From Sabellastarte sp. h YS-2021 (Eukaryota; Annelida; Polychaeta; Sabellida; Sabellidae), in assembly GCA_964017235.1 (NCBI GenBank), contig OZ024929.1, positions 108,361,793 to 108,425,792 on the forward strand: a stretch of DNA of 64,000 nt. The letters run 5' to 3'. Positions 2,777 through 55,372 of this stretch are shown here, piece after piece. Numbering within the stretch: the first letter of the stretch is position 1; each line of letters opens with the position of its first letter. The translations under genes and the position numbers were made by a program. The notes beneath the pieces are model-generated. The model was not told where the DNA came from. It searched no databases and was given only the letters and a program-made list of their open reading frames with translations.

Positions 2777-5700
2777 TTATATCCCCAGACGAAAGTCGGG
2801 GATATATTGGATTCAGGTCCGTCGCGCCGCCGCCGCCGCCGCCGCCGCCGCCGTAGAAATTTCCTTGTGGACGCGATAACTCAAAAACAAATTAATATTT
2901 TTTTTTCAAACTTGGTACACATGTTAAGGGTGCCCAAAGGAAGATCCCTATTTTAAGGTGACCTTAAACTCCCAGTAAAAAAGAACTTATGGCCACCTTA
3001 AGGTCAGAAATTGGACTTTTGACCACTTAGAGCCCTGTAGGTCACAAACTATGATGCTCAGCTGGCTGAAATTTTACCTGACAACACATTAATATGTTCT
3101 TAGTACATGTGCCGAAAATCACGACTTTAAGTTGAGGAGAAAATTGTGTTTGAGGCCCATAAATACCCCCACTTCGGGATTTTTTGCTATACTTTTCACA
3201 TATTTTGCCCTATAATTTGGAAGTGGTAATTCTGATGAGTCTCAAACTGCGCTAGGTATAACTTTGATATGTAATCCTTGTCTGTAGAAAATTTTAGGGC
3301 TGTAGGTTTACCCAAAGGGGTCGACTTAAGGTCTCAAAAGTGCCCACAGAGACCCAATTTATGCACTTTTTGCCACTTTCAAGCACTGTAGCTTTCAAAC
3401 TATGTCTCTCATCTAAGTTAAATATCATCTGGGAATATATCTATGTGTTTTCTTATATGTGCCCCAACATTTAGGCCTTTAATAGACAGTTAACCTGTGT
3501 ATCAGGACCATAAACACCCACCAGAGTGACCCTTATAAGACATTTTTCACATCTTTTTCCCTGTAACTTGGAAATGGTAAGTCTGAGAAGTTTCAAACTG
3601 TATTAGATATATATTCTGTGTGTAATCTTAGTATGTAACAGATTTTAAGTCTGAAGCTTTAATTTTGAAGGTCAAATTGAGGTCTCTAAAAGGCTCCCAA
3701 AGACCCAATATTTGGACTTTTTGCTACTTTTAAGCCCTGTGACTGTCAAACTATGTGACTGATAGAGCTCAAATCCTATCTGGGAAGATATTAGTATGTT
3801 ATTTATATATGTGCCAAAAATTAAGGCTTTAAGAAGACATTTAACCTGTGTATGAGGACCATAAATCCCCACCCGAGTGACCATTTTTAGACATTTTTCA
3901 CATATTTTGCCCTGTAACTTGGAAATGGTAAGTCTAAGAAGTTTCAAACTGTATTAGATGCATATTCTATGTGTAATCTTAGTATGTGACAAATTTTAAG
4001 TCTGAGGCTTTAATTTGAAGGCCACATTTAGGTCTCTAGAAGGCCCCATAAAGACCCAGTATTTGGACTTTTTGCCAATTTTAAGGCCTGTGACTGTTAA
4101 ACTATGTGACTGATAGAGCTGAAATCTCATCTGGGAATACATTATTATGTTCTTTTTACATGTGCCAAAAATCAAGGCTTCAAGTAGACATTTAACCTGT
4201 GTATGAGGACCTTAAACACCCACCTGAGTGACCCTTTTAAGACATTTTTCACATATTTTGCTCTGTAACTTGGAAATGGTAAGTCTGAGAAGTTTCAAAC
4301 TTTATTAGATACATATTCTATGTGTAATCTTAGTATGTAACAAATTTTAAGTCTGAAGCTTTAATTTGAAAGCCACATCGAGATCTCTAAAAGGCCCACA
4401 GAGACCCAATATTTGGACTTTTTAACCACCTTTAAGCCCTGTGACTGTTAAACTATGTGATTGATGGAGCTGAAATCCCATCTGGGAATGCATTATTATG
4501 TCCTTTTTACATATGCCGAAAATCAAGGTTTTTAGTAGACATTTAACCTGTGTATGAGGGCCATAGACACTCGCCCAAGTGCCTTTTTGGACATTTTTTC
4601 CGTATTTTGCCCTGTTATTTGGAAATGCTTAGTGTGACAAGTCTTAAACTGTATTATATATAATTTTTGTTTGTTATGTATGTCCCCCAAAAAGTTTCAG
4701 ATCTGTTGTTTAATTGCTAAGGTCTCTTTAACAATTGTAAAATGCCCACAGAAACCCAATTTATGGACATTATGCCACTTTAAAGCCCAGTAACTGTCAA
4801 ACTATGTGGGTTATAGAGCTGAAATCTTTGAATTTTTAAAAGGAAATGCCTGTCTATTTAAATTTTGAATATTAATAATGTTATGGCTATCTTAGTCTTT
4901 TAAGAACTTATTTTTGTGTGTTATACCTCTGCTTGCTGAGTTTTTAACTTTTTAAAATGAAACTGGTTAAACATATTCAAGTAGACAAAATGGACACTTT
5001 AAGTGAGCTTTAAGTCCCAATATTAATGAAATTATATCCTTATGTAGTAAAAGTAGGGGATTTTTAACCCTCAACTAGCCCAGTTTTATTCAACTTGCCT
5101 CAGTTAATTTTGACACAGCTCCTACAGTTATGAACTCATTTCAGTTGATAATCACATACTTAAAATTCTCAATTCTTTTTGTATTTGAGTACCCCTTTTA
5201 TATAGATTGTTTGTTTACCATTTATGCATCCCCCACCCGGATTCCCCCCACCCACCTCTGGGACCTCCAGCTATATTGAGTGACACTAAATAAACAAAGG
5301 TATTTAATGATATCAGATGAGAAACAAAGAACTCAATGGGGTTGCAGATCTTGTGTAATAGTGAGAGAGGTGTGGAGAAGGGGAGAGGGGTGGGGGTGGG
5401 AGGTGGTGGGCTTCATTACATATAACACAAAGGGGAGTCAGAACTGAGATTGTGTCACATATTTATTTAGGTTGCATATATATGGACCACATATATAGGT
5501 ATAGAGGAAATGAATAACTGAAAACAATTTGCAAATTCTAAAAATAATATAATAAAATAATAATATAAATAATTTTTTTTTAAATAATATTTTATTTGTG
5601 AACAAATATAGAAACAGATATGCGCTTTTGGGATTATGAATTTTAGAATGGACATTGAATCATCAATCATTTAAATACTTTGAAGGAAGATTGAAAAGTA

Positions 5701-6045
5701 TGATGAGTTGAGTTAAAAATAATATTTTATTTGTCAACAAATATAGAAACAGATATGCTCTTTTGGGATTATTATTTTAGAATGGACATTCAATCATCAA
5801 TCATTTAAATACTTTGAAAATAGGTTTAGAGTTATCATTGCAGGAAGATTGAAAATATAATTTGAGTTATGTATTCGGCGTCTGGGGATACACCATCTTC
5901 CTTGGAAGATATAAACAGAGTAGATTGATGTGCTGAAGTTCATATAATAATGGGTAATTATGTTTTAAAAAATTCCCGATCAAAACCTGTGGCGTGAGTG
6001 ATGACCTGTCTGGGGATATGTTGGCGCCGAGTTGGCCCAATCTAG
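2777..6045 (+). mobile_element. 3.27-kb HINE/Helentron-like element, copy 1
   Basis: Inserted in satellite A. The 5' end is TT then ATATCCCCAGAC, a GAAA loop and GTCGGGGATATA (hairpin), followed by a (GCC)n tract at about 2827-2851 and CGCGATAACTCAAAAAC. The 3' end has the inverted copy GTCTGGGGATAT (6008-6019), a hairpin TTGGcGCC/GGC-CCAA, then CTAG at 6042-6045 followed by TT. The body has about five diverged units of roughly 350 bp (landmark AACCTGTGTATGAGGACC near 3492, 3842, 4192, 4543) and a roughly 135-bp direct duplication near 5583-5820. No transposase or helicase frame is seen, so it is non-autonomous. A second near-identical copy is at 16759-20029. Confidence 0.85.
5874..5920 (+). 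repeat. Internal, earlier 3'-end-like module of the 3.27-kb element
   Basis: CGTCTGGGGATAC (same motif as the 3' subterminal repeat) is followed by the hairpin ATCTTCC-TT-GGAAGAT. The arrangement repeats the real 3' end about 130 bp upstream of it, as if the element carries two successive 3' ends. Confidence 0.6.
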
Positions 6046-6232
6046 TTTTAAAAAAATTTTCCCCTCCCCAAAAATGGCGGCCATTTTGAATTTTCGAATT
6101 TTTGCCAAAAATGGCAAAACACAAATTTGCTTCTATCTCCTTAACCGTGCGAGATAGAGCGATTTCGTCAAAATTTTCGACGCACAGGGTATCTAAGCAA
6201 TGCAATCTTTGCAATTTTCCAAAAATTTTCCC
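6046..6232. repeat. Satellite A, remainder after the insertion
   Basis: One more 169-bp monomer that continues the array interrupted at 2776. The left flank ends TAA and the right flank starts TTTT; an uninterrupted monomer reads TAATTTTAAAA. Confidence 0.9.
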
Positions 6233-6323
6233 CATGGGTGGACATTACACATGATAATGTGTGTTCTTCTATGCTATCCTGTTTCTATTCGCATCTACTA
6301 TCAACAGGGCGGCCTATTTCTAG
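6233..6323 (+). mobile_element. 3' end of a family-2 HINE-like element carrying satellite A
   Basis: CATGGGTGGACAT, the hairpin ACACAT-GATA-ATGTGT, then about 60 bp ending CTAG at 6320-6323 before TTT. The same sequence ends the large satA-filled element at 51821-51911. The 5' end of this copy is presumably left of the window. Confidence 0.8.
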
Positions 6324-6492
6324 TTTACAATTTTCATAGTTAAACCAATCATAAGAACATATCAATTTAGTTAGAATTCTGTCCCTGTGGTTAGTTAGAA
6401 TTCTGTCACTGTTTGGTGTTGTTTATGTTGTAACTTTCGGTTTGTTTTATTTTGGGCTGTCAAGAGTGTATGGGCATTTGCTAAAGAGAAGA
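6324..6492. other. AT-rich spacer
   Basis: Unique-looking sequence between the satA element and the hAT element. It contains a short direct repeat (TTAGTTAGAATTCTGTC). No gene seen. Confidence 0.5.
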
Positions 6493-6500
6493 GTAGTAAG

Positions 6501-8324
6501 TAGGGGTGTGACTAGTACAAATAATTCGGGTTGAATGCTGGCAGATAAAAACTAGACTCGACATCGAGTCCTCACGAAGTTTAGTATCCACCTTAACAGG
6601 AAACGACATCCAATATGGCAGCTCCCGTAAACGCAAAAAGTATAAGGATAAAAGCTTTGAATCGCTTGAATTAGCTATTGTTAGCACATAATATCAATAA
6701 TATTATTTAAAAAATGATTGATTATACGATTTAATGTAAGTAAGGTGTGTTATTTATGTTTTATTAACTAAAAAACGTAACCAGTTCTATAGGTTGTTAT
6801 ACCGTAGCCGCGCTCTGTAACACCCATGGGCAGTGTGACCAAATATTTGCAAAAGTTGAGAATGGGCGTTTACAACAACGAAAACCAGCCAGGCGTTTTG
6901 AAAAAGTAACCCGAATTTGGGGAAACCGCGTTTTAGCACATACCGACTGGAAGTAAAATATACGGTTGGTGAACAAATTTCGGCACAATAAAAGGTGACA
7001 TAATTACTAAAATAAGGAAACTATTGTTGAAAATGGATATAAATTAATCATATTTGACCGATTATTGGGTTTTTAGCTTACTGGCCAACGGCCGTAAGCT
7101 AATGGCATGGCCTGGCGTCGTCTTCGTTGTTGTTGTTGTTGTGGTTGTTGTCGGCGTCGTCAACAATTTTTTTCCAGCCTCTTCTCCTCAGAAACTACTG
7201 CACCGATTTCTTTGAAATTTGGTATGGAGCTTCCTTGGGTAGAGGACTATCATTTTTCCTCATTGCATGTTTTTCAACCAATCAGAGAAGTCACATGACC
7301 AAAAACATGTTTTTCAAAAGGGTGTGCTTGTCTGGATGATAACTTAAAAAGCGCTTCACCTATTCACATGAAATTTTGCAAGTACGTTCGTTATATACAT
7401 GTCTGGAAATCAATAACTTTTCGAAGTGATCCAATACAAAATGGCCGACTTATTAATGATTTACTAAATGTCACAATTTTTCTTAACGCTGAAAAAACAA
7501 AAACGTGTGTATCTCCTTAACCGTGCGAGATAGAGCGATTTCAACGAAATTTTCGACCCACAGGGTATCTAAAGAATGTCTATTGGCAATTTTCAAAAAT
7601 TTTCCCCTCCCCAAAAAAGGCGGCCATTTTGAATTTTCAAATTTTTGCCGAAAATGGAAAAACACAAAATTGCTTGTATCTCCTTAACCGTGCGAGATAG
7701 AGCGATTTCGACGAAATTTTCGACGAAATTTTCGATCCACGGGGTATCTAAAGAATGTCTATTGGCAATTTTTAGAAAAATTTTCCCCTCCCCAAAAAAT
7801 GGCGGCCATTTTGAATTTTCGAATTTTTGCCAAAAATGGCAAAATACAAAATTGCTTGTATCTCCTTAACAGTGCGAGATAGAGCGATTTCGTCGAAATT
7901 TTCGACCCACAGGGTATCTAAGGAATGTACTAATGTCAATTTTCAAAAAATTTTCCCCTCCCCAAAAATGGCGGCCATTTTGAATTTTCGAATTTTTGCC
8001 AAAAATGACAAAACACAAAATTACTTGTATCTCCTTAACCATGTGAGATAGAGCGATTTCGTTGAAATTGTATAAAACATATATTAATTGCTGCACATTT
8101 ATAGCATGAAAAAAGTATTTGGGTGGCACAACCATAACATGCGGGTCGCCAGTAAGCAGCAGGCCTTGGCCTATTTTTATGAAGTAAGTTCACATCAAAA
8201 CGACATATTAGCAATTTATGGGCGATAACGTAAGATCGTGGATGGGCGCGGCACCAGTATATACACAAGCACTCGACTCTGAGAATTGGGATCAAATTCT
8301 CATGACTGCTCGGTCGCACCCCTA
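6501..8324. mobile_element. Non-autonomous hAT-like element with perfect 8-bp target duplication
   Basis: Terminal inverted repeats TAGGGGTGTGAC (6501) and GTCGCACCCCTA (ending 8324) match at 11 of 12 positions. They are flanked by GTAGTAAG at 6493-6500 and 8325-8332, the 8-bp duplication expected of hAT transposons. No transposase frame is visible. A HINE-like element (7073-8172) sits inside it. Confidence 0.88.
7073..8172 (+). mobile_element. HINE-like element, family 4, with satA-like monomers
   Basis: The 5' hairpin is perfect: TTAGCTTAC, T, GGCC, AAC, GGCC, GTAAGCTAA (7073-7102), then a GTT/GTC-rich tract and GATTTCTTTGAAATTTGGTA. The interior at about 7500-8068 holds three to four satA-like monomers (169 or 182 bp apart). 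The 3' end has the inverted CCAGTAAGC (8149-8157) and hairpin AGGCC-TT-GGCCT (to 8172), followed by ATTTTTA. Non-autonomous; nested in the hAT element. Confidence 0.75.
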
Positions 8325-8332
8325 GTAGTAAG

Positions 8333-10262: not shown

Positions 10263-13200
10263 GTGAGTATTAGTTTAATGTGCCACTGTCTTCTTTTTGG
10301 TGCTACTTTGTTCTGAACCTATGACGAAAATAATATTCTATTTATTCATTAATATATACAAAAATATGACCATCCTTTTATTCATTAATGCTTAATATAT
10401 TTAATTGATATGGTTGTTAATTTTTAAATTGATTTTTAAATTGATTTTTAAATTGATTCCAGTGTAAAAGTTCTTCAGCAACTACTATTGTTCTTCAGCT
10501 GTACAAGTACAAATTATATGAAAACACTTTTCTGTAAGTGTATTTGTAGTTTGTACATTTTAAAACTTACTCAAAATATCTATGTCTGACACCATAATGT
10601 ATTTAGTCTATCAAAGTAAAATATAGTCTAAAATGACTAGATTATACTATATAGATTAGGTTATGTTGAGTGCATGTACTCTGTATGAATAAACTAAAAT
10701 ACTTTTTCAGAAGGTGGAACTAAATTGTGAAGACATTTCGACATTGTAGTTAATCATTTAGAGATATTGCAAGTCGGATATGGGAAATATGTAAATTAAT
10801 GTTGATGTTTAAGCTCCCTTGATTTCAAGATCGGCAATTTCAAAATATTGTTTTACGTAAAACTTATAATTAAGCGTCCCGCAAGGGATGCTTGTTTGTG
10901 TATGGGAGAGCTTCCGGCTCCGCCGGCTCCGCATTTTGTTTTCCTTATAACTCTGTAACCGTTAGGCGGATTCTTTTCAAATTTGGCAGGTTTAGGCAGT
11001 AGCCTTGGGGAATTTTTTTGAATATGCTGCAGTGACATTTCAACCAATCAGAGAGGTCACATGACCAAAAATGTCTTTTTTCGATGGGGAAGCTTTTCCG
11101 GATGATAACTTGAAAGGAATTTTATCAATTCACCTGAAACTTGGCAAATACATTCATTCTATTAAAATCTGGAAATCATTAGATTTTGGCATTGATTGGT
11201 CAAGAAATGGCCGAGTAATTAATGATTAATTAATCATTACGAATTTTCCAAATAAGGAAAACACAAAAATGCTTATATCTCGAAAACCGTGCTAGATAGA
11301 GCGATTTCGACGAAATTTTTGACCCGCAGGGTATCTCTGCGGAGTAGTTATCCCAATTTTCAAAAAATTTTTGTCTCGCCCAAAATGGCGGCCATTTTGA
11401 ATTTTCGAAATTTTCGCAAAAATTGCAAAACACAAAAATGCTTATATCTCAAAAACCGTGCTAGATAGAGTAATTTCGACAAAATTTTTGATGTGCAGGA
11501 TATCTCTGCGGAGTACTTTTCCCAATTTTCAAAAAAATTTTGTCTCGCCAAAAATGGCGGCCATTTTGAATTTTCGAAATTTTCGCAAAAATTGCAAAAC
11601 ACAAAAATGCTTATATCTCGAAAACCCTGCTAGATAGAGCGATTTCGATGAAATTTTTGACCCACAGGGTATCTCTGCAGAGTAGTTATCCCAATTTTGA
11701 AAAAATTTTTCTCTCGCCAAAAATGGCGGCCATTTTGAATTTTCGAATTTTTCGCAAAAATTGCAAAACATAAAAATGCTTATATCTCGAAAACCCTGCT
11801 AGATAGAGCGATTTCGACAAACTTTTTGACCCACAGGGTATATCTGCAGAGTAGCCATGCCAATTTTCAAAAAAATTTTGTCTCGCCAAAAATGGCGGCC
11901 ATTTTGAATTTTCGAATTTTTCGCAAAATTGCAAAACACAAAAATGCTTATATCTCGAAAACCGTGCTAGATAGAGCGATTTCGACGAAATTTTTGACCC
12001 ACTGGGTATCTCTGCAGAGTAGCCATGCCAATTTTCAAAAAAATTTTGTCTTGCCAAAAATGGCGGCCATTTTGAATTTTCGAATTTTTGCGCAAAAATT
12101 GCAAAACACAAAAATGCTAATATTTCGAAAACCGTGCTACATAGAGCGATTTCGACGAAATTTTTTATCTTCAGGGTATCTCTGCAGAGCGGCTATCCCA
12201 AAGAGCTTTCACTTGGTGAAGTTTCAGACCCATAGCTAATTGCTCACCTACTCAAAAAGAGTAAATGCAAATTACCTCTAAAAGTATTGCAGATGGCCAA
12301 TTTTTCTCAAATAACTCATTCACCTACTTTTGGAAGAGCTTTCACATGGTGAAGTTTCAGACCCATAGCCAATTACTCACCTACTCAAAATGAGTAAATG
12401 CGAATTATCTCTAAAAATATTGCAGATAGCCAATTTTTCTCAAATAACTCATTCACCTACTTTTGGGAGAGCTTTCACATGGTGAAGTTTCAGACCCATA
12501 GCTAATTATTTACCTACTCAAAATGAGTAAATGCTAATTATCTCTAAAAGTATTGCGGATACCCAATTTTTATCAAATAACTCATATCTACTTGTGGGAG
12601 AGCTTTCACATGGTGAAGTTTCAGACCCATAGCTAATTACTCACCTACTCAAAATGAGTAAATGCGAATTATCTGTAAAAGTATTGCAGATAGCCAATTT
12701 TTCTCAAATAACTCATTCACCTACTTTTGGGAGAGCTTTCACTTGGTGAAGTTTCAGACCCATAGCTAATTACTCACCTACTCAAAATGAGTAAATGCGA
12801 ATTATCTCTAAAAGTATTGCAGATAGCCAATTTTTCTCAAATAACTCATTCACCTACTTTTGGGAGAGCTTTCACTCTGTGAAGTTTCAGACCCATAGCT
12901 AATTACTCACCTACTCAAAATGAGTAAATGCGAATTATCTCTAAAAGTATTGCAGATAGCCAATTTTTCTCAAATAACTCATTCACCTACTTTTGGGAGA
13001 GCTTTCACTTGGTGAAGTTTCAGACCCATAGCTAATTACTCACCTACAGAAAATGAGTAAATGTGAATTATCTCTAAAAGTATTGCAGATAGCCAATTTT
13101 TCTCAAATAACTCATTCACCTACTTTTGGGAGAGCTTTCACTTGGTGAAGTTTCAGACCCATAGCTAATTACTCACCTACTCGAAATGAGTAAATGCGAA

Positions 13201-16200
13201 TTATCTCTAAAAGTATTGCAGATAGCCAATTTTTCTCAAATAACTCATTCACCTACTTTTGGGAGAGCTTTCACTTGTTGAAGTTTCAGACCCATAGCTA
13301 ATTACTCACCTACTCAAAATGAGTAAATGCGAATTATCTCTAAAAGTATTGCAGATAGCCAGTTTTTCTCAAATTAATCATTCACCTACTTTTGGGAGAG
13401 CTTTCACTTGGTGAAGTTTCAGACCCATAGCTAATTACTCACCTACTCAAAATGAGTTAATGCGAATTATCTCTAAAAGTATTGCAGATAGCCAATTTTT
13501 CTCAAATAACTCATTCACCTACTTTTGGGAGAGCTTTCACTTGGTGAAGTTTCAGACCCATAGGTAATTACTCACCTACTCAAAATGAGTAAATGCGAAT
13601 TATCTGTAAAAGTATTGCAGATAGCCAATTTTTCTCAAATAACTCATTCACCTACTTTTGGGAGAGCTTTCACTTGGTGAAGTTTCAGACCCATAGCTAA
13701 TTACTCACCTACTCAAAATGAGTAAATGCGAATTATCTCTAAAAGTATTGCAGATAGCCAATTTTTCTCAAATAACTCATTCACCTACTTTTGGGAGAGC
13801 TTTCACTTGGTGAAGTTTCAGACCCATAGCTAATTACTCACCTACTCAAAATGAGTAAATGCGAATTATCTCTAAAAGTATTGCAGATAGCCAGTTTTTC
13901 TCAAATTAATCATTCACCTACTTTTGGGAGAGCTTTCACTTGGTGAAGTTTCAGACCCATAGCTAATTACTCACCTACTCAAAATGAGTAAATGCGAATT
14001 ATCTCTAAAAGTATTGCAGATAGCCAATTTTTCTCAAATTAATCATTCACCTACTTTTGGGAGAGCTTTCACTTGGTGAAGTTTCAGACCCATAGCTAAT
14101 TACTCACCTACTCAAAATGAGTAAATGCGAATTATCTCTAAAAGTATTGCAGATAGCCAATTTTTCTCAAATAACTCATTCACCTACTTTTGGGAGAGCT
14201 TTCACTTGGTGAAGTTTCAGACCCATAGCTAATTACTCACCTACTCAAAATGAGTAAATGCGAATTATCTCTAAAAGTATTGCAGATAGCCAATTTTTCT
14301 CAAATAACTCATTCACCTACTTTTGGGAGAGCTTTCACTCTGTGAAGTTTCAGACCCATAGCTAATTACTCACCTACTCAAAATGAGTAAATGCGAATTA
14401 TCTCTAAAAGTATTGCAGATAGCCAATTTTTCTCAAATAACTCATTCACCTACTTTTGGGAGAGCTTTCACTTGGTGAAGTTTCAGACCCATAGCTAATT
14501 ACTCACCTACTGAAAATGAGTAAATGTGAATTATCTCTAAAAGTATTGCAGATAGCCAATTTTTCTCAAATAACTCATTCACCTACTTTTGGGAGAGCTT
14601 TCACTTGGTGAAGTTTCAGACCCATAGCTAATTACTCACCTACTCGAAATGAGTAAATGCGAATTATCTCTAAAAGTATTGCAGATAGCCAATTTTTCTC
14701 AAATAACTCATTCACCTACTTTTGGGAGAGCTTTCACTTGTTGAAGTTTCAGACCCATAGCTAATTACTCACCTACTCAAAATGAGTAAATGCGAATTAT
14801 CTCTAAAAGTATTGCAGATAGCCAGTTTTTCTCAAATTAATCATTCACCTACTTTTGGGAGAGCTTTCACTTGGTGAAGTTTCAGACCCATAGCTAATTA
14901 CTCACCTACTCAAAATGAGTTAATGCGAATTATCTCTAAAAGTATTGCAGATAGCCAATTTTTCTCGAATAACTCATTCACCTACTTTTGGGAGAGCTTT
15001 CACTTGGTGAAGTTTCAGACCCATAGGTAATTACTCACCTACTCAAAATGAGTAAATGCGAATTATCTGTAAAAGTATTGCAGATAGCCAATTTTTCTCA
15101 AATAACTCATTCACCTACTTTTGGGAGAGCTTTCACTTGGTGAAGTTTCAGACCCATAGCTAATTACTCACCTACTCAAAATGAGTAAATGCGAATTATC
15201 TCTAAAAGTATTGCAGATAGCCAATTTTTCTCAAATAACTCATTCACCTACTTTTGGGAGAGCTTTCACTTGGTGAAGTTTCAGACCCATAGCTAATTAC
15301 TCACCTACTCAAAATGAGTAAATGCGAATTATCTCTAAAAGTATTGCAGATAGCCAGTTTTTCTCAAATTAATCATTCACCTACTTTTGGGAGAGCTTTC
15401 ACTTGGTGAAGTTTCAGACCCATAGCTAATTACTCACCTACTCAAAATGAGTAAATGCGAATTATCTCTAAAAGTATTGCAGATAGCCAATTTTTCTCAA
15501 ATTAATCATTCACCTACTTTTGGGAGAGCTTTCACTTGGTGAAGTTTCAGACCCATAGCTAATTACTCACCTACTCAAAATGAGTAAATGCGAATTATCT
15601 CTAAAAGTATTGCAGATAGCCAATTTTTCTCAAATTAATCATTCACCTACTTTTGGGAGAGCTTTCACTTGGTGAAGTTTCAGACCCATAGCTAATTACT
15701 CGTCTACTCAAAATGAGTAAATGCGAATTATCTCTAAAAGTATTGCAGATAGCCAATTTTTCTCAAATAACTCATTCACCTACTTTTGGGAGAGCTTTCA
15801 CTTGGTGAAGTTTCAGACCCATAGCAAATTACTCACCTACTCAAAATGAATAAATGCGAATTATCTCTAAAAGTATTGCAGATAGCCAATTTTTCTCAAA
15901 TAACTCATTCACCTACTTTTGGCAGAGCTTTCACTTGGTGAAGTTTCAGACCCATAGCTAATTATTCACCTACTCAAAATGAGTAAATGTGAATTATCTC
16001 TAAAAGTATTGCAGATAGCCAATTTTTCTCAAATAACTCATTCACCTACTTTCGGGAGAGCTTTCGCTCTGTGAAGTTTCAGACCCATAGCTATTTATTC
16101 ACCTACTCAAAATGAGTAAATGCTAATTATCTGTAAAAGTATTGCGGATACCCAATTTTTATCAAATACTCATTCATCTACTTGTGGGAGAGCTTTCACT

Positions 16201-35825: not shown

Positions 35826-36042
35826 ACATTAAATTTATTTATGGAATCAGACATTGAGTGAACTATTTGCGATTAACTTTATTTACAGATTAAATTATAT
35901 TTGGATATTTTGTGTGTTAAAATTCATTCAGTATTTTGAAAAAGTTATAAATAGTGAGCACAACAGTTTAAAAAAGTAAAATTTATTTATGGAATCAGAC
36001 ATTGAATGAACCATTTTCCCTTAACTTTATTTAAAGATTTAA
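35826..36042. repeat. 153-bp tandem duplication, second copy interrupted
   Basis: ATTTATTTATGGAATCAGAC at 35826 recurs at 35979. The second copy is cut at 36042 and resumes at 38317 (TTATATTTGGATATTTTGTG, then CAACAGTTTAAAAAAGTAAA to about 38402). It fixes the insertion point of the element between them. Confidence 0.85.
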
Positions 36043-39033: not shown

Positions 39034-39314
39034 TTATCTCCCGCCGGCCGGGCGGGAGGTTATAAAACGCATTCCGTGCGTGTGTTCGTGTGTTATTGAG
39101 TGTGTGTCACGCTTTTATAAAGGGCTGTACATCACACTGGTTGTTTCTCCTTGGCCTTTTCAATGTTTTTTATGCTTACTCAAAATGAGTAAATGCGAAT
39201 TATCTCTAAAAGTATTGCAGATAGCCAATTTTTCTCAAGGAGTTTTGTCAAATATGTTGTTCACCTACTTTTTGATGTAGTGCGGCGGGAGATCATACCA
39301 CGGCAGTGGTCTTG
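39034..39314 (+). mobile_element. Minimal 281-bp HINE-like element (family 3) with a single satC fragment
   Basis: 5' TT, ATCTCCCGCC-GGCCG-GGCGGGAGGT hairpin (39036-39060). 3' GGCGGGAGAT (39284-39293), hairpin ACCAC-GGCA-GTGGT, CTTG then TTG. Between them, 39176-39237 matches one satC monomer segment (ACTCAAAATGAGTAAATGCG through AGCCAATTTTTCTCAA). The same 3' end closes the satC array at 16526-16557. Confidence 0.88.
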
Positions 39315-39565: not shown

Positions 39566-41103
39566 GTATGGTGAAATAAAGTATATGAATAAAAAGTGCA
39601 GTCTGTAGGCAAGATATTTCATTCTCAGTTTATGTGTCCTTGAAGGCTTCAGTGGTGAAAGTTTGATATAGTCTTACTTCAGGGCTACTAAAAACTCTTT
39701 GTTAACGCTCGACGATAGGAAAGGGTTATTGTAATCAGTTTGTTTCTGTCAGTCTGTCTGTCTGTCTGTCTGTGCACCGTTTTGCCCTTATAACTCAAAA
39801 ACTATAACATCAATCGAGCTCAAATTTGGTGGATAGATATTTCATGGGGTACAGACGGAATTTTCCAAATTTGGTGTAATTTGTTTGAAAATTAAAGTCA
39901 GGAGACAGGTTTTTAAATTTTTAATTGGGCATATACAGTGAAACCTACTTGTCTTCAAAAATCAATATCATGATAGGATTTCCTCTTCATGAATTCTTGC
40001 CTCATTAGGTATCCTCTGTGGCTGTGAGTGTAATGTGTAGAACTTGTAATCTCATGGTTGGGGTTCAATACCAGTCATTTCTAAATTTATTTTTTTTTTT
40101 AAATTTTTTTTTTAGGTTTTTTTAGCAATTTTTTTAAATGTCTTTTAAAAAGAAAAGAAAAAAAGCACAGCATCTAAAATTTTGCTGTTCAAAAAAAAAC
40201 CAAGATAAAGTGTTCAACTTAATGGACAATAATTTTCAATTGGGCATATACAGAGAAATCTGATTTTCTTTATTGCATAAGTAAAAAAATCAATATTTTG
40301 CTGTCTGATGATGTCATTACTTAATGATGTCACAATGCAATTGTCATTGTGAGGTCACAAAACTTAGCTTGTGATACTTGTGATATATTTCTTCTCATTA
40401 AATTTATGTCTTGAAATTGACATAAATACAATTGAGAGGGAAGTGGTGTATTTGTCATGTTTATTTATTTCTGTTTTTTTTTGTTTTTTTTCGTTTGTTT
40501 GTTTCAATTTCTTGACAGTCCATCACAAAAATTTACTCTGAGTAATTTTGACCAAGAAGTGGCTTTTAACCAATATTTTTACCTCTACCAGGAGTTTATG
40601 TTTATTATGTGCTTTTTTGTCTATTTGTCTGCCTGTTTTTGGTGTTTAGATTACTCCAGAACTAATGAACAGATCTTTATAAAAATTTGTGAGTAGGACC
40701 TGGTGAAAGGAAGAAATTACTAATTTTTGGGAAAGACGTGGATCATATTTTGGATACAAAAAAATCATGAATTTTCATAGGTCCCATTTCAATGTATTTT
40801 AATGATTTTAGCTTTCTACTTCATATTTCTTCAAAAGTAATTAATAAATTTTGATGTCAAATTTGAAGTAGGAAGGGACTAGCCATGGGAAGGAGTGATT
40901 ACAGTTTAGGAAAGATCCAGTTAATATTTTGGATTCCAAGAAGCCTCCAGAATTTCTGGAAATGCCACCATGGTGGATGCGCGTTATACTTTATAACACT
41001 TGTGAGACTGGTCACATCGAGTTGAGCGTTTTGCTCTCTCTGAGTGTATCTTGTTGCTTTTGTAACGGGTCACAAAACGTTCAGACATCTGGGTGGAGTG
41101 GTG
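39566..41103. other. Repeat-derived intergenic or intron region
   Basis: Holds a (GTCT)n run near 39748-39772, a segment like the 5' part of HINE-like elements (TATAACTCAAAAACTATAAC, then TCAAATTTGGTGG) from about 39710, T-rich runs near 40085-40130, and sequence like 22250-22420 near 40640-40770. GAGCGTT near 41021 is the complement of AACGCTC near 39703, so a further, poorly defined HINE-like element (39.70-41.06 kb) is possible. Confidence 0.35.
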
Positions 41104-43822
41104 GTAAATACTAGGGGTGAGTCGGTAGTGGCGGTATACCGGCATGGAGACAATTATACCGAAATACCGTGACCACTTTCAGAACCGGAATCTTGAGTGT
41201 CAGCTAATATAATTATTGGGAAACGTAAAATAGTAAATACCAAACCTGAATCTGAAGAAAATATAAACTATTATCTCATTATGTCCACCCCCCTGGGGGG
41301 TGGATATATTATTTTTGCTTTTTTCGCCGTCCGATGTCCGGCGTCCGATGTCCGGCGTCACGCATGGTTTCCGCTCATTTAAAGGAAAAGTATTAGAGCT
41401 ATTGTCACCAAATTTGGTATGCAGGCTTATTGGGTCAGTAGCTTGCTTGGGATTGCTTTTGGCTGTTGTACCTCATTTGCTTACTGAGTAATACTTAAGT
41501 ACAGCTATTTTCAGTACCCATTGGTTTCCGTGCATTTAAGCCAAAATAATTAAAGATATTTTACTACAATTTTGAATACAAGATTGTTATGTCCATAGCT
41601 CGCTTGGTATTGCATTTGGGACTGATAGCTTTGTCAGTACATGAGTAATAGCCATTTAGGTACTTCATTGTGTATTTTCAGTACTACTTTTGAGTAATTT
41701 GCTAATATCTCAGAAACCGTGTGAGATAGAGCGATTTCGTCGAAATTTTCGACCCACAGGGTATTTAAGGAATGTAATATTTGCAATTTTCAAAAAATTT
41801 TCCCCTCCCCAAAAATGGCGGCCATTTTGAATTTTCGAATTTTTGCCAAAAATGGCAAAACACAAATTTGCTTCTATCTCCTTAACCGTGCGAGATAGAG
41901 CGATTTCGTCAAAATTTTCGACCCACAGGGTATCTGAGCATTGTACTCTTGGTAATTTTAAAAAAATTTTCCCCTCCCCAAAAATGGCGGCTATTTTGAA
42001 TTTTCGAATTTTTGCCAAAAATGGCAAAACACAAATTTGCTTCTATCTCCTTAACCGTGCCAGATAGAGCGATTTCGTCAAAATTTTCGACCCACAGGGT
42101 ATCTGAGCATTGTGCTCTTGGTAATTTTTACAAAATTTTCCCCTCCCCAAAAATGGCGGCCATTTTGAATTTTCGAATTTTTGCCAAAAATGACAAAACA
42201 CTAATTTGCTTCTATCTCCTTAACCGTGCGAGATAGAGCGATTTCGTCGAAATTTTCGACCCACAGGGTATCTAAGGAATGCAATCTTTGCAATTTTCCA
42301 AAAATTTTCCCCTCCCCAAAAATGGCGGCCATTTTGAATTTTCGAATTTTTGCCAAAAATGGCAAAACACAAATTTCCTTCTATCTCCTTAACCGTGCCA
42401 GATAGAGCGATTTCGTCAAAATTTTCGACCCACAGGGTATCTGAGCATTGTACTCTTGGTAATTTAAAAAAAATTTTCCCCTCCCCAAAAATGGCGGCCA
42501 TTTTGAATTTTTGAATTTTTGCCAAAAATGGCAAAACACAAATTTGCTTCTATCTCCTTAACCGTGCCAGATAGAGCGATTTCGTCGAAATTTTCGACCC
42601 ACAGGGTAACTAAGGAATGCAATCTTTGCAATTTTCCAAAAATTTTCCCCTCCCCAAAAAATGGCGGCCATTTTGAATTTTCGAATTTTTGCCAAAAATG
42701 GCAAAACACAAATTTCCTTCTATCTCCTTAACCGTGCGAGATAGAGCGATTTCGTCAAAATTTTCGACCCACAGGGTATCTGAGCATTGTACTCTTGGCA
42801 ATTTTTTAAAAAATTTCCCCTCCCCAAATATGGCGGCCATTTTGAATTTTCGAATTTTTGCCAAAAATGGCAAAACACTAATTTGCTTCTATCTCCTTAA
42901 CCGTGCGAGATAGAGTGATTTCGTCAAAATTTTCGACCCACAGGGTATCTAAGGAATGCAATCTTTGCAATTTTCCAAAAATTTTCCCCTCCCCAAAAAT
43001 GGCGGCCATTTTGAATTTTCGAATTTTTGCCCAAAATGGCAAAACACAAATTTCCTTCTATCTCCTTAACCGTGCGAGATAGAGCGATTTCGTCGAAATT
43101 TTCGACCCACAGGGTATCTAAGGAATGCAATCTTTGCAATTTTCAAAAAATTTTCCCCTCCCCAAAAATGGCGGCCATTTTGAATTTTCGAATTTTTGCC
43201 AAAAATGGCAAAACACCAATCTGCTTCTATCTCCTTAACCGTGCGAGATAGAGCGATTTCGTCAAAATTTTCGACCCACAGGGCATCTGAGCATTGTACT
43301 CTTGGTAATTTTTAAAAAATTTTCCCCTCCCCAAAAATGGCGGCCATTTTGAATTTTCGAATTTTTGCCAAAAATGGCAAAACACAAATTTCCTCCTATC
43401 TCCTTAACCGTGCCAGATAGAGCGATTTCGTCAAAATTTTCGACCCACAGGGTATCTGAGCATTGTGCTCTTGGTAATTTTTACAAAATTTTCCCCTCCC
43501 CAAAAATGGCGGCCATTTTGAATTTTCGAATTTTTGCCAAAAATGACAAAACACTAATTTGCTTCTATCTCCTTAACCGTGCGAGATAGAGCGATTTCGT
43601 CGAAATTTTCGACCCACAGGGTATCTGAGCATTGTGCTCTTGGTAATTTTCCAAAAATTTTCCCCTCCCCAAAAATGGCGGCCATTTTGAATTTTCGAAT
43701 TTTTGCCAAAAATGGCAAAACACTAATTTGCTTCTATCTCCTTAACCGTGCGAGATAGAGCGATTTCGTCGAAATTTTCGACCCACAGGGTATCTAAGGA
43801 ATGCAATCTTTGCAATTTTCCA

Positions 43823-44053
43823 GGGGGCCACGGTGGCAGAGTGGTAACACTCTCGCCTCCCACCTCTGCGGCCGGGGATCGATCCCCGTCATGGCCGTAA
43901 GTGGGAAAGCTGGTAGTTGCTTGCCGTTGGTCGGCAGTTTACAGTACACAACCCTAGCGAACTCTATGTACTGGTTTCCTCTGCCCTTCCAACTACCCGT
44001 CGTGATATGACCTGTACAGTGTTGAAAGCGACGTAAAACCCCAAATAAACAAA
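43823..44053 (+). mobile_element. tRNA-derived SINE in satellite A, copy 1
   Basis: 231 bp with A box TGGCAGAGTGG (43834-43844) and B box GGATCGATCC (about 43876-43885), ending CCCCAAATAAACAAA. It is flanked by a 15-bp duplication CTTTGCAATTTTCCA (43808-43822 and 44054-44068), so it entered by target-primed insertion. Confidence 0.88.
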
Positions 44054-45928
44054 CTTTGCAATTTTCCAAAAATTTTCCCCTCCCCAAAAATGGCGGCCAT
44101 TTTGAATTTTCGAATTTTTGCCAAAAATGGCAAAACACAAATTTGCTTCTATCTCCTTAACCGTGCCAGATAGAGCGATTTCGTCAAAATTTTCGACTCA
44201 CAGGGTATCTGAGCATTGTACTCTTGGTAATTTAAAAAAAATTTTCCCCTCCCCAAAAATGGCGGCCATTTTGAATTTTCGAATTTTTGCCAAAAATGGC
44301 AAAACACTAATTTGCTTCTATCTCCTTAACCGTGCGAGATAGAGCGATTTCGTCGAAATTTTCGACCCACAGGGTATCTAAGGAATGCAATCTTTGCAAT
44401 TTTCCAAAAATTTTCCCCTCCCCAAAAATGGCGGCCATTTTGAATTTTCGAATTTTTGCCAAAAATGGCAAAACACAAATTTCCTTCTATCTCCTTAACC
44501 GTGCCAGATAGAGCGATTTCGTCAAAATTTTCGACCCACAGGGTATCTGAGCATTGTACTCTTGGTAATTTAAAAAAAATTTTCCCCTCCCCAAAAATGG
44601 CGGCCATTTTGAATTTTTGAATTTTTGCCAAAAATGGCAAAACACAAATTTGCTTCTATCTCCTTAACCGTGCCAGATAGAGCGATTTCGTCGAAATTTT
44701 CGACCCACAGGGTAACTAAGGAATGCAATCTTTGCAATTTTCCAAAAATTTTCCCCTCCCCAAAAAATGGCGGCCATTTTGAATTTTCGAATTTTTGCCA
44801 AAAATGGCAAAACACAAATTTCCTTCTATCTCCTTAACCGTGCGAGATAGAGCGATTTCGTCAAAATTTTCGACCCACAGGGTATCTGAGCATTGTACTC
44901 TTGGCAATTTTTAAAAAAATTTCCCCTCCCCAAATATGGCGGCCATTTTGAATTTTCGAATTTTTGCCAAAAATGGCAAAACACTAATTTGCTTCTATCT
45001 CCTTAACCGTGCGAGATAGAGTGATTTCGTCGAAATTTTCGACCCACAGGGTATCTAAGGAATGCAATCTTTGCAATTTTCCAAAAATTTTCCCCTCCCC
45101 AAAAATGGCGGCCATTTTGAATTTTCGAATTTTTGCCCAAAATGGCAAAACACAAATTTCCTTCTATCTCCTTAACCGTGCGAGATAGAGCGATTTCGTC
45201 GAAATTTTCGACCCACAGGGTATCTAAGGAATGCAATCTTTGCAATTTTCAAAAAATTTTCCCCTCCCCAAAAATGGCGGCCATTTTGAATTTTCGAATT
45301 TTTGCCAAAAATGGCAAAACACCAATCTGCTTCTATCTCCTTAACCGTGCGAGATAGAGCGATTTCGTCAAAATTTTCGACCCACAGGGCATCTGAGCAT
45401 TGTACTCTTGGTAATTTTTAAAAAATTTTCCCCTCCCCAAAAATGGCGGCCATTTTGAATTTTCGAATTTTTGCCAAAAATGGCAAAACACAAATTTCCT
45501 CCTATCTCCTTAACCGTGCCAGATAGAGCGATTTCGTCAAAATTTTCGACCCACAGGGTATCTGAGCATTGTGCTCTTGGTAATTTTTACAAAATTTTCC
45601 CCTCCCCAAAAATGGCGGCCATTTTGAATTTTCGAATTTTTGCCAAAAATGACAAAACACTAATTTGCTTCTATCTCCTTAACCGTGCGAGATAGAGCGA
45701 TTTCGTCGAAATTTTCGACCCACAGGGTATCTGAGCATTGTGCTCTTGGTAATTTTCCAAAAATTTTCCCCTCCCCAAAAATGGCGGCCATTTTGAATTT
45801 TCGAATTTTTGCCAAAAATGGCAAAACACTAATTTGCTTCTATCTCCTTAACCGTGCGAGATAGAGCGATTTCGTCGAAATTTTCGACCCACAGGGTATC
45901 TAAGGAATGCAATCTTTGCAATTTTCCA

Positions 45929-46159
45929 GGGGGCCACGGTGGCAGAGTGGTAACACTCTCGCCTCCCACCTCTGCGGCCGGGGATCGATCCCCGTCATGG
46001 CCGTAAGTGGGAAAGCTGGTAGTTGCTTGCCGTTGGTCGGCAGTTTACAGTACACAACCCTAGCGAACTCTATGTACTGGTTTCCTCTGCCCTTCCAACT
46101 ACCCGTCGTGATATGACCTGTACAGTGTTGAAAGCGACGTAAAACCCCAAATAAACAAA
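45929..46159 (+). mobile_element. Same SINE, copy 2
   Basis: Essentially identical to copy 1, with the same flanking 15-bp duplication. It arose by amplification of the higher-order repeat, not by a new insertion. Confidence 0.88.
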
Positions 46160-47865
46160 CTTTGCAATTTTCCAAAAATTTTCCCCTCCCCAAAAATGGC
46201 GGCCATTTTGAATTTTCGAATTTTTGCCAAAAATGGCAAAACACAAATTTGCTTCTATCTCCTTAACCGTGCCAGATAGAGCGATTTCGTCAAAATTTTC
46301 GACTCACAGGGTATCTGAGCATTGTACTCTTGGTAATTTAAAAAAAATTTTCCCCTCCCCAAAAATGGCGGCCATTTTGAATTTTCGAATTTTTGCCAAA
46401 AATGGCAAAACACTAATTTGCTTCTATCTCCTTAACCGTGCGAGATAGAGCGATTTCGTCGAAATTTTCGACCCACAGGGTATCTAAGGAATGCAATCTT
46501 TGCAATTTTCCAAAAATTTTCCCCTCCCCAAAAATGGCGGCCATTTTGAATTTTCGAATTTTTGCCAAAAATGGCAAAACACAAATTTCCTTCTATCTCC
46601 TTAACCGTGCCAGATAGAGCGATTTCGTCAAAATTTTCGACCCACAGGGTATCTGAGCATTGTACTCTTGGTAATTTAAAAAAAATTTTCCCCTCCCCAA
46701 AAATGGCGGCCATTTTGAATTTTTGAATTTTTGCCAAAAATGGCAAAACACAAATTTGCTTCTATCTCCTTAACCGTGCCAGATAGAGCGATTTCGTCGA
46801 AATTTTCGACCCACAGGGTAACTAAGGAATGCAATCTTTGCAATTTTCCAAAAATTTTCCCCTCCCCAAAAAATGGCGGCCATTTTGAATTTTCGAATTT
46901 TTGCCAAAAATGGCAAAACACAAATTTCCTTCTATCTCCTTAACCGTGCGAGATAGAGCGATTTCGTCAAAATTTTCGACCCACAGGGTATCTGAGCATT
47001 GTACTCTTGGCAATTTTTAAAAAAATTTCCCCTCCCCAAATATGGCGGCCATTTTGAATTTTCGAATTTTTGCCAAAAATGGCAAAACACTAATTTGCTT
47101 CTATCTCCTTAACCGTGCGAGATAGAGTGATTTCGTCGAAATTTTCGACCCACAGGGTATCTAAGGAATGCAATCTTTGCAATTTTCCAAAAATTTTCCC
47201 CTCCCCAAAAATGGCGGCCATTTTGAATTTTCGAATTTTTGCCAAAAATGGCAAAACACCAATCTGCTTCTATCTCCTTAACCGTGCGAGATAGAGCGAT
47301 TTCGTCAAAATTTTCGACCCACAGGGCATCTGAGCATTGTACTCTTGGTAATTTTTAAAAAATTTTCCCCTCCCCAAAAATGGCGGCCATTTTGAATTTT
47401 CGAATTTTTGCCAAAAATGGCAAAACACAAATTTCCTCCTATCTCCTTAACCGTGCCAGATAGAGCGATTTCGTCAAAATTTTCGACCCACAGGGTATCT
47501 GAGCATTGTGCTCTTGGTAATTTTTACAAAATTTTCCCCTCCCCAAAAATGGCGGCCATTTTGAATTTTCGAATTTTTGCCAAAAATGACAAAACACTAA
47601 TTTGCTTCTATCTCCTTAACCGTGCGAGATAGAGCGATTTCGTCGAAATTTTCGACCCACAGGGTATCTGAGCATTGTGCTCTTGGTAATTTTCCAAAAA
47701 TTTTCCCCTCCCCAAAAATGGCGGCCATTTTGAATTTTCGAATTTTTGCCAAAAATGGCAAAACACTAATTTGCTTCTATCTCCTTAACCGTGCGAGATA
47801 GAGCGATTTCGTCGAAATTTTCGACCCACAGGGTATCTAAGGAATGCAATCTTTGCAATTTTCCA

Positions 47866-48096
47866 GGGGGCCACGGTGGCAGAGTGGTAACACTCTCGCC
47901 TCCCACCTCTGCGGCCGGGGATCGATCCCCGTCATGGCCGTAAGTGGGAAAGCTGGTAGTTGCTTGCCGTTGGTCGGCAGTTTACAGTACACAACCCTAG
48001 CGAACTCTATGTACTGGTTTCCTCTGCCCTTCCAACTACCCGTCGTGATATGACCTGTACAGTGTTGAAAGCGACGTAAAACCCCAAATAAACAAA
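47866..48096 (+). mobile_element. Same SINE, copy 3
   Basis: Identical setting to copies 1 and 2. The preceding higher-order unit is one 169-bp monomer shorter. Confidence 0.88.
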
Positions 48097-49972
48097 CTTT
48101 GCAATTTTCCAAAAATTTTCCCCTCCCCAAAAATGGCGGCCATTTTGAATTTTCGAATTTTTGCCAAAAATGGCAAAACACAAATTTGCTTCTATCTCCT
48201 TAACCGTGCCAGATAGAGCGATTTCGTCAAAATTTTCGACTCACAGGGTATCTGAGCATTGTACTCTTGGTAATTTAAAAAAAATTTTCCCCTCCCCAAA
48301 AATGGCGGCCATTTTGAATTTTCGAATTTTTGCCAAAAATGGCAAAACACTAATTTGCTTCTATCTCCTTAACCGTGCGAGATAGAGCGATTTCGTCGAA
48401 ATTTTCGACCCACAGGGTATCTAAGGAATGCAATCTTTGCAATTTTCCAAAAATTTTCCCCTCCCCAAAAATGGCGGCCATTTTGAATTTTCGAATTTTT
48501 GCCAAAAATGGCAAAACACAAATTTCCTTCTATCTCCTTAACCGTGCCAGATAGAGCGATTTCGTCAAAATTTTCGACCCACAGGGTATCTGAGCATTGT
48601 ACTCTTGGTAATTTAAAAAAAATTTTCCCCTCCCCAAAAATGGCGGCCATTTTGAATTTTTGAATTTTTGCCAAAAATGGCAAAACACAAATTTGCTTCT
48701 ATCTCCTTAACCGTGCCAGATAGAGCGATTTCGTCGAAATTTTCGACCCACAGGGTAACTAAGGAATGCAATCTTTGCAATTTTCCAAAAATTTTCCCCT
48801 CCCCAAAAAATGGCGGCCATTTTGAATTTTCGAATTTTTGCCAAAAATGGCAAAACACAAATTTCCTTCTATCTCCTTAACCGTGCGAGATAGAGCGATT
48901 TCGTCAAAATTTTCGACCCACAGGGTATCTGAGCATTGTACTCTTGGCAATTTTTAAAAAAATTTCCCCTCCCCAAATATGGCGGCCATTTTGAATTTTC
49001 GAATTTTTGCCAAAAATGGCAAAACACTAATTTGCTTCTATCTCCTTAACCGTGCGAGATAGAGTGATTTCGTCGAAATTTTCGACCCACAGGGTATCTA
49101 AGGAATGCAATCTTTGCAATTTTCCAAAAATTTTCCCCTCCCCAAAAATGGCGGCCATTTTGAATTTTCGAATTTTTGCCCAAAATGGCAAAACACAAAT
49201 TTCCTTCTATCTCCTTAACCGTGCGAGATAGAGCGATTTCGTCGAAATTTTCGACCCACAGGGTATCTAAGGAATGCAATCTTTGCAATTTTCAAAAAAA
49301 TTTTCCCCTCCCCAAAAATGGCGGCCATTTTGAATTTTCGAATTTTTGCCAAAAATGGCAAAACACCAATCTGCTTCTATCTCCTTAACCGTGCGAGATA
49401 GAGCGATTTCGTCAAAATTTTCGACCCACAGGGCATCTGAGCATTGTACTCTTGGTAATTTTTAAAAAATTTTCCCCTCCCCAAAAATGGCGGCCATTTT
49501 GAATTTTCGAATTTTTGCCAAAAATGGCAAAACACAAATTTCCTCCTATCTCCTTAACCGTGCCAGATAGAGCGATTTCGTCAAAATTTTCGACCCACAG
49601 GGTATCTGAGCATTGTGCTCTTGGTAATTTTTACAAAATTTTCCCCTCCCCAAAAATGGCGGCCATTTTGAATTTTCGAATTTTTGCCAAAAATGACAAA
49701 ACACTAATTTGCTTCTATCTCCTTAACCGTGCGAGATAGAGCGATTTCGTCGAAATTTTCGACCCACAGGGTATCTGAGCATTGTGCTCTTGGTAATTTT
49801 CCAAAAATTTTCCCCTCCCCAAAAATGGCGGCCATTTTGAATTTTCGAATTTTTGCCAAAAATGGCAAAACACTAATTTGCTTCTATCTCCTTAACCGTG
49901 CGAGATAGAGCGATTTCGTCGAAATTTTCGACCCACAGGGTATCTAAGGAATGCAATCTTTGCAATTTTCCA

Positions 49973-50203
49973 GGGGGCCACGGTGGCAGAGTGGTAACAC
50001 TCTCGCCTCCCACCTCTGCGGCCGGGGATCGATCCCCGTCATGGCCGTAAGTGGGAAAGCTGGTAGTTGCTTGCCGTTGGTCGGCAGTTTACAGTACACA
50101 ACCCTAGCGAACTCTATGTACTGGTTTCCTCTGCCCTTCCAACTACCCGTCGTGATATGACCTGTACAGTGTTGAAAGCGACGTAAAACCCCAAATAAAC
50201 AAA
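49973..50203 (+). mobile_element. Same SINE, copy 4
   Basis: Identical setting to copies 1-3; last SINE of the array. Confidence 0.88.
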
Positions 50204-52120
50204 CTTTGCAATTTTCCAAAAATTTTCCCCTCCCCAAAAATGGCGGCCATTTTGAATTTTCGAATTTTTGCCAAAAATGGCAAAACACAAATTTGCTTCT
50301 ATCTCCTTAACCGTGCCAGATAGAGCGATTTCGTCAAAATTTTCGACTCACAGGGTATCTGAGCATTGTACTCTTGGCAATTTAAAAAAAATTTTCCCCT
50401 CCCCAAAAATGGCGGCCATTTTGAATTTTCGAATTTTTGCCAAAAATGGCAAAACACAAATTTCCTCCTATCTCCTTAACCGTGCCAGATAGAGCGATTT
50501 CGTCAAAATTTTCGACCCACAGGGTATCTGAGCATTGTACTCTTGGTAATTTTTAAAAAATTTTCCCCTCCCCAAAAATGGCGGCCATTTGAATTTTCGA
50601 ATTTTTGCCAAAAATGGCAAAACACTAATTTGCTTCTATCTCCTTAACCGTGCGAGATAGAGTGATTTCGTCGAAATTTTCGACCCACAGGGTATCTAAG
50701 GAATGCAATCTTTGCAATTTTCAAAAAATTTTCCCCTCCCCAAAAATGGCGGCCATTTTGAATTTTCGAATTTTTGCCAAAAATGGTAAAACACAAATTT
50801 GCTTCTATCTCCTTAACCGTGCGAGATAGAGCGATTTCGTCGAAATTTTCGACCCACAGGGTATCTAAGGAATGCAATCTTTGCAATTTTCCAACAAATT
50901 TTCCCCTCCCCAAAAATGGCAGCCATTTTGAATTTTCGAATTTTTGCCAAAAATGGCAAAACACAAATTTGCTTCTATCTCCTTAACCGTGCGAGATAGA
51001 GCGATTTCGTCGAAATTTTCGACCCACAGGGTATCGAAGAAATGCAATCTTTGCAATTTTCCGAAAAATTTTCCCCTCCCCAAAAATGGCGGCCATTTTG
51101 AATTTTCGAATTTTTGCCAAAAATGGCAAAACACAAATTTGCTTCTATCTCCTTAACCATGCGAGATAGATCGATTTCATCAAAATTTTCGACCCACAGG
51201 TATTTCAGCATTGTATTCTTGGCAATTTAAAAAAAAATTTCCCGTCCCCTAAAATGGCGGCCATTTTGAATTTTCAAATTTTTGTCAAAAATGGCAAAAT
51301 ACAAATTTGCTTCTATCTCCTTAACCATGCGAGATAGAGCGATTTCGTCGAAATTTTCAACCCACAGGGTATCTAAGGAATGTAATCTTTGCAATTTTCA
51401 AAAAATTTTCCCCTCCCCAAAAATGGCAGCCATTTTGAATTTTCGAATTTTTGCCCAAAATGGAAAAACACAAACTGGCCTTAACCGTGCAAAATAGAGT
51501 TATTTCGTTGAAATTTTCGACCCATAGGGTATCTAAAAAATGTACTCTTGGCAATTTTCAAAAAAATTTCCTTTTCCCAAAAATGGCGGCCATTTTGAAT
51601 TTTCAAATTTTTGCCAAAAATAGAAAAACAGGAATTTGCTTCTATCTTCTTAACCGTGCCAGATAGAGTGATTTCGTCAAAATTTTCAACCCAACCAATG
51701 CAAAAAGGCATGAAGCTGAAATAATTTACATCTACACTAACAAATATTTAAGCATCATTGATATATTTTACAAATGAAACAGGGTCTTGTAAGACTACTG
51801 TACAATTTGGGCAAAAGGTTCATGGGTGGACATTACACATGATAATGTGTGTTCTTCTATGCTATCCTGTTTCTATTCGCATCTACTATCAACAGGGCGG
51901 CCGATTTCTAGTTTTTCACTAGATTTTAATGCATTTATTGCAATTTCTTTAAGAAAACTGCCATGTTTTGGTTTACGGGAAATCACTTCCTGTTTGTGGG
52001 TCTATTTGATTGGGAAAATGCTGAAACATAAACTTTTTCGGTATCCAGGAATCGGGACGGTTTTGCATTGGCGGAATCCCGAACTAGAAAATCTGGTACC
52101 GTCGCACCCCTAGTAAATAC

Positions 52121-55370: not shown

Positions 55371-55372
55371 GG

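Follow-up and report, generated by a model that had tools for sequence, protein, structure and literature searches.

Non-autonomous rolling-circle (HUH) transposons of the Helentron/Helitron2 branch, known as HINEs, spread satellite DNA in bivalves. Those of Crassostrea gigas (Cg_HINE) consist of a 5' subterminal inverted repeat (subTIR) with a complementary inverted repeat, a microsatellite, satellite-like repeats, a 3' subTIR and a palindrome; they occupy TT-rich targets without duplication and comprise 11 types, some related to one another in flanks or repeats and others not (PMC7492417). HINEs and Helentrons of a mite, Culex and Drosophila have palindromic subTIRs, a 3' palindrome and a TT target, with families defined by subTIR identity (PMC4067079), and Rep, helicase and a C-terminal endonuclease together are the coding mark of Helentrons (PMC4067079, Thomas et al. 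2014). Helitron2 elements carry a 5' asymmetrical terminal inverted repeat (ATIR) in a hairpin and a 3' ATIR 20 to 30 nucleotides (nt) from the end, upstream of a hairpin, and show compensatory changes (PMC3627910). Mixed and truncated arrays are known in Helitron/Helentron elements (review, PMC12628747). The present analysis concerns a 64,000-nt stretch of Sabellastarte sp. h YS-2021 (contig OZ024929.1; G000:C3:108361793-108425792), hereafter the window, in which eight intervals assigned to families A to G are read as HINEs with a probability of roughly 93%.

The window elements resemble Cg_HINE in anatomy, TT targets and partly related types, and the newness of a superfamily with differing termini is not supported, 11 such types being already described in oyster (PMC7492417). 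They are a rich example of the Helitron2/Helentron (HINE) system described in 2013-2014 and in oyster, not a new system, and on the open literature covered here neither the window families nor the coding Helentron described below (R1) is claimed to be unpublished. What this genome adds is a like-ended Helentron with a deletion derivative, a set of clean empty sites, and a single instance in which both ends have changed in concert. Neither of two oyster studies found a matching autonomous element: in the accessible text of PMC7492417, Cg_HINE could not be related to autonomous elements, whereas here R1, a like-ended coding Helentron, is accompanied by a deletion derivative, and the oyster genome paper, in its accessible part, reports no evidence for autonomous elements (PMC7992393).

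Like the mite, Culex and Drosophila elements, those described here have palindromic subTIRs that tell families apart and a TT target; a 3' palindrome folds in A, F, R1 and the R1-family HINE, and Rep, helicase and endonuclease are encoded in the R1 family. The mite 3' subTIR lies 38-60 nt from the end, whereas the 3' motif copy of A is subterminal by 26 nt, and the satellite interiors here are much longer than in the elements of PMC4067079. Helitron2 shares the 5' hairpin ATIR, the subterminal 3' ATIR, compensatory changes and one-ended copies with the window elements, but is described in PMC4067079 as lacking the endonuclease, whereas R1 has one. Some algal Helitron2 copies have target duplications of 7-19 nt (PMC3627910), whereas none were seen here. 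Left-end-less copies in the window recall the 5'-truncated, one-ended Helitron2 of Chlamydomonas (PMC3627910).

End architecture of the window elements

The eight intervals are as follows, a slash marking the element boundary or insertion point.

2777..6045, forward strand: HINE A1, TT plus ATATCCCCAGAC hairpin, 351-nt repeats, 3' GTCTGGGGATAT, hairpin, CTAG/TT; empty site 100% identical over 100 nt
7072..8172, forward strand: HINE B, TAGCTTACTGGCC, 169-nt repeats, 10-nt inverted copy; end GGCCT/ATTTTT
10870..20241, forward strand: HINE C, AAGCGTCCC; composite of 169-nt and 133-nt arrays and an F-type right end, with A2 within; end CTAG/TT
16759..20029, forward strand: HINE A2, second A copy, inside C; 98.8% identical to A1 (blastn); empty site 83%, with an 8-nt gap
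22793..23840, forward strand: HINE D, AACCCCAGCC; in an intron of an HBS1L-like gene; end CTGGC/TTTTTT
36043..38316, forward strand: HINE E, GTATCCCCGGAC, homologue of A with 147-nt repeats and an H-type right end (38101-38155); end CTGTAG/TT
39034..39314, forward strand: HINE F, ATCTCCCGCC, 281 nt, with part of one 133-nt unit; end CTTG/TT
41279..51911, forward strand: HINE G, 5' motif TTATGTCCACCC, 169-nt array; end CTAG/TT

As predicted, a TT and a hairpin stand at the 5' end of all eight intervals, and the 5' motif recurs inverted within the last 100 nt as a perfect copy of 12 nt (A1, A2 and E), 11 nt (D and F) or 10 nt (B, C and G). The 10-nt match of C is part of a 16-nt imperfect match, and the part of the G motif that pairs with its 3' copy is ATGTCCACCC. 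These repeats have the character of Helentron and HINE subTIRs (at least 11 nt at both ends, the 5' one palindromic or accompanied by an inverted repeat), with B, C and G reaching only 10 perfect nt. When the eight 5' motifs were scored against the eight 3' ends, the element's own 3' end ranked top for seven of eight, the two A copies tying with each other; the exception, B, scores 10 against its own 3' end and 11 against the 3' region of D. Depending on the element, the own-end score was equalled by 3 to 67 of 5000 random 100-nt stretches, drawn from the window with the true ends included. A small 3' hairpin was identified by folding in A, F, R1 and the R1-family HINE, and by eye in the remaining elements. 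The predicted termini, CTAG, CTGTAG or CTTG followed by TT, were found at six of the eight intervals, the exceptions being B and D.

Both strands of a 264-kb sample, formed by the window and the adjoining 200 kb, were scanned strictly for TT-hairpins whose arm recurs downstream, inverted and exact over 10 nt, with CTAG, CTGTAG or CTTG and then TT behind it. This pattern was present at 14 of 96 TT-hairpins (10 of family A, two of F, one of H and one unassigned, at 85414, perhaps a chance match). It was absent from 20 Markov shuffles (one strand) and occurred twice in the upstream mirror, both times adjoining other A copies. Among the window elements the strict scan recovers only A1, A2 and F (3/8), the others being missed because of hairpin mismatches, other terminal sequence or a longer tail; without the terminal rule, five of eight are recovered (A1, A2, D, F and G), together with many unrelated matches. 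A looser three-copy scan was dropped, as its 18 matches were not separated from the 1-8 in shuffles and the 5 and 14 in reversed sequence.

Insertion sites and the coding Helentron R1

Ten full copies of family A are present in the 264-kb sample, with pairwise identities of 91.6-99.7% (median, 98.9%). The scan that retrieved them required the 5' TT and hairpin but not the right end, and all 10 end in CTAG/TT; copies with boundaries away from the motifs, which had been named as contrary evidence, were not seen among them. The set is confined to copies with an exact hairpin and 3' copy, and thereby excludes an A-like left end at 239628 (69%) and a right end at 195070 (79%).

The joined flanks of 21 insertions were compared with the same sample, and 12 gave a spanning match. 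Paralogous empty sites that restore W/TT (W, A or T) span 10 of the 11 A/E insertions (nine of the 10 A copies, and E) at 83-100% identity. Three of these are 100% identical over 100 nt, two alignments are gapped (8 and 3 nt) near the junction, and the empty site of E, at 35845-35944, is 91% identical. The two further matches, H122305 (its own right flank) and F85225 (83% over 53 nt), were not counted. For the other nine insertions, no spanning match was retrieved from the 264 kb; the misses of C119265, H243965, G75040 and H122305 mean little, because their right ends were placed 1-4 nt off. At the 10 A/E sites the target is TT without target modification, and the consistent longer target duplication that had been named as contrary evidence was not seen. 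The 5' TT would fit either an element that itself starts with TT or a 2-nt duplication of the target; in mite HINEs, the count and placement of flanking Ts are likewise unclear (PMC4067079).

A search of the 1.786-Gb assembly retrieved at least 24 loci with Helitron_like_N matches. Four of them (L025, L027, L028 and L030) are 98.9-99.4% identical to one another where aligned, over 2-3.5 kb, and L023 and L029 are 98.9% identical. Locus L028, here called R1, carries a single 2245-amino-acid frame comprising a C48-type protease (22.2 bits, against a cut-off of 20.7), DUF6570, Rep, PIF1 helicase and, at the C terminus, an Exo_endo_phos endonuclease (26.3 bits, against a cut-off of 24.5; 19.9 in a truncated piece). 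A search of its flanks for the same architecture, in which many weaker matches of 8-9 nt are noise, placed its ends 11.7 kb apart, at about G000:C3 168667287-168678957. The 5' side reads AGGCGGGTTG, 8 nt and CAACCCGCCT, and the 3' side reads CAACCCGCCT, a hairpin and CTCTTG/T. The R1 family unites Rep, PIF1 helicase, C-terminal endonuclease and the same kind of ends. On the minus strand of the 264-kb sample, a 690-nt element (195943-195254) joins the 5' part of R1 (80% over 535 nt) to its 3' part (85% over 185 nt) and shares its CTCTTG end; its arms are decayed, and it is an old deletion-derived HINE of the R1 family.

The identification of the window elements as HINEs, already made in the original prediction, rests on their architecture, on W/TT insertion without longer duplication at 10 of 11 A/E sites and on the presence in this genome of a coding Helentron whose ends are built alike. 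The one autonomous Rep-helicase element resolved, R1, is like-ended with a motif of its own. Within roughly 3 kb at each of the 24 Rep loci, the A-H motifs occur only in an inserted A element (L025) and as an isolated B-like 10-mer (L022), and a regular-expression search of the 264 kb for Rep/helicase motifs gave no match. The inserted element (L025:1380-3567; G000:C11, minus strand) is a family-A HINE lying in the sequence that codes the Rep HUH motif of an R1 Helentron copy.

Motif change, mechanism and rival readings

The original prediction regarded the termini as unrelated. This is not the case for all of them: E is homologous to A (68% over 111 nt, E=5.7e-10), and a 793-nt alignment (76.7%) links the interiors of B and C. 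The motifs of A and E differ at two positions, and the 3' copy of E has changed at both partner positions. The 169-nt repeats of B, C and G align mutually, and by eye A, E, H and one G copy have motifs of the common form TT-RTATCCMCC. Most copies of A, B, C, E and G match a block in the 5' parts, CAAATTTGGTA, at 9-11 of 11 positions; D, F and H, together with one A-like copy and a single copy of C, match it at only 7-8. Matches of at least 10 occur in 90/5000 (forward) and 69/5000 (reverse) random 190-nt stretches, and 6/21 left ends reach 10 when read on the opposite strand. A longer 5'-interior pattern has 29 matches on both strands, including the R1-family HINE as well as A, C and E; shuffles give 1-8 per strand. 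Given these controls and the failure of D and F to share the block, only a partial homology of the 5' parts is claimed. On sequence comparison, the elements appear to represent seven motif types in about five homology groups, nested and carrying satellite arrays.

Beside the observed three-copy architecture, common boundaries, W/TT insertion, coupled A/E change and like-ended Helentron with its derivative stands an enzymology that we infer, including the single strand, the pairing switch and the assignment of a Rep to a family. A Helentron Rep would nick a single strand at the /TT of the 5' end, and the helicase would then peel the nicked strand off. The single-stranded 5' arm would have two possible partners: its neighbouring complement, with which it forms the 5' hairpin, and the copy close to the 3' end. 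Pairing with the latter would undo the 5' hairpin and mark the element end, a switch proposed by Bao and Jurka in 2013 (PMC3627910). The strand would be cut past the 3' hairpin at CTAG/TT and joined into a W/TT target. As the three copies would have to stay complementary, they would tend to change jointly while the motif drifts, yielding many private motifs in one frame.

Several results weigh against the HINE reading or its details. The coupling is imperfect, with mismatched or decayed arms in G copy 255253, H copy 122305 and the R1-family HINE; B and D lack a CTxG/TT end; empty sites for B, C, D, F (39034) and G were not found in the 264 kb; and an autonomous partner of A-H was not found, the A-H motifs being absent from the 13.6-kb R1 locus, so that R1 is not their sequence-matched partner. 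A single Helentron Rep that reads shape (a hairpin with its arm repeated near the 3' end), whatever the letters, would produce a recently copied family A whose motif is missing from the autonomous locus with known ends. Such shape reading is nevertheless unlikely, and the motif that R1 shares with its own deletion derivative favours, as far as sequence goes, matched ends for the R1 family. If shape were read, any DNA that gained the three-copy frame, satellite arrays included, would become mobile. A like-ended Helentron, its derivative and recent Rep copies about 99% identical in one genome make the choice between shape and letters testable.

Other classes of element account poorly for the data. 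Cut-and-paste transposons with terminal inverted repeats (TIRs), or miniature inverted-repeat elements with short inverted ends, would explain the inverted copies near both ends, but the 3' copy is subterminal and followed by a separate hairpin, and no duplication beyond TT is seen at 10 of 11 A/E sites. The combination of TIRs and target duplication was not found, a TT duplication alone being the form still compatible with the sites, and this origin is highly improbable. Canonical Helitrons (Helitron1), defined by a 5' TC, a 3' hairpin with CTRR, A/T insertion and no 5' hairpin, are a slimmer prospect again: the CTAG that comes after the 3' hairpin of A, C and G would suit CTRR, but the elements begin with TT and a hairpin rather than TC, F ends in CTTG, the targets are W/TT and R1 carries a C-terminal endonuclease, so that the defining combination is absent. 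That the elements are artefacts of satellite-rich DNA with chance hairpins can practically be dismissed. The interval is largely tandem repeats and the loose scan did not separate signal from noise, but 10 dispersed A copies have the same ends and empty sites, and the strict scan gave 14 matches against 0 in 20 shuffles; for A and E the empty sites refute this explanation.

Nested elements, duplications and neighbouring features

Further copies and partial elements are listed below.

1..2776, forward strand: second G element, 169-nt array, split by the A1 insertion
6046..6323, forward strand: right end of the second G element (1-6323); 6234-6323 is 98.9% identical to G; end CTAG/TT
12202..16557, forward strand, inside C: 133-nt satellite array leading into a right end of F type (16525-16557), without a recognised F left end
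27721..28132, forward strand: 128-nt repeats with a right end of H type (28067-28132), without a recognised left end
72636-70041 of the 264 kb, minus strand: second copy of D, by sequence match
85225-77135 of the 264 kb, minus strand: second copy of F, by sequence match

Further G ends are also present in the 264 kb. The nested copies provide clean empty sites, and arrays together with right ends are seen moving between families. By eye, no long target duplication was seen at the left-end-less F-type array in C. Within A1, at 5877-5913 and 130 nt before the right end, a second GTCTGGGGATA stands before a palindrome (ATCTTCC..GGAAGAT) and seems to mark an older right end. At 243965 of the 264 kb, the end of an A element coincides exactly with the 5' TT of an H element, and the two HINEs abut head to tail. 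The segment at 61860-62017 (minus strand) is 77.5% similar to the left interior of A, has no ends and is an A relic. At 39740-39870 a TCTG microsatellite precedes a left-end-like block in which no hairpin is recognised; this may be what is left of a HINE.

For three of 25 insertions, all among the 11 of A/E (0/14 for the others), the surrounding sequence is a head-to-tail duplication of two copies; the element sits in the second copy, and the duplication junction is 44-63 nt 5' of it. In coordinates of the 264 kb they are as follows.

81845-78576, minus strand: A/E insertion in a duplication
36043-38316, forward strand: A/E insertion in a duplication
220539-216487, minus strand: A/E insertion in a duplication

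The duplication units measure 277, 148 and 70 nt, with copies 99.6, 93.5 and 90.3% alike. A first random-site control gave 0/400; in a second, from which A/E elements had been taken out and in which overlap was judged more loosely, 61/2580 random W/TT sites fell in such duplications. There may be a link between insertion and short tandem duplication of the target, a weak lead noticed post hoc in a small set; as the 90% pair looks older than its insertion, in a family mostly about 99% alike, chance or target preference are fair readings.

The segment at 54000-60300 has higher GC and open frames on both strands and looks by eye like a DIRS-type retroelement; Pfam gave it no support, with a single weak match below cut-off. 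The HBS1L-like gene that harbours HINE D in an intron spans 20746-34560; its exon at 22618-22779 matches the EF-Tu GTP-binding domain, and that at 30665-30841 matches a solved HBS1-like protein (E=7e-13).

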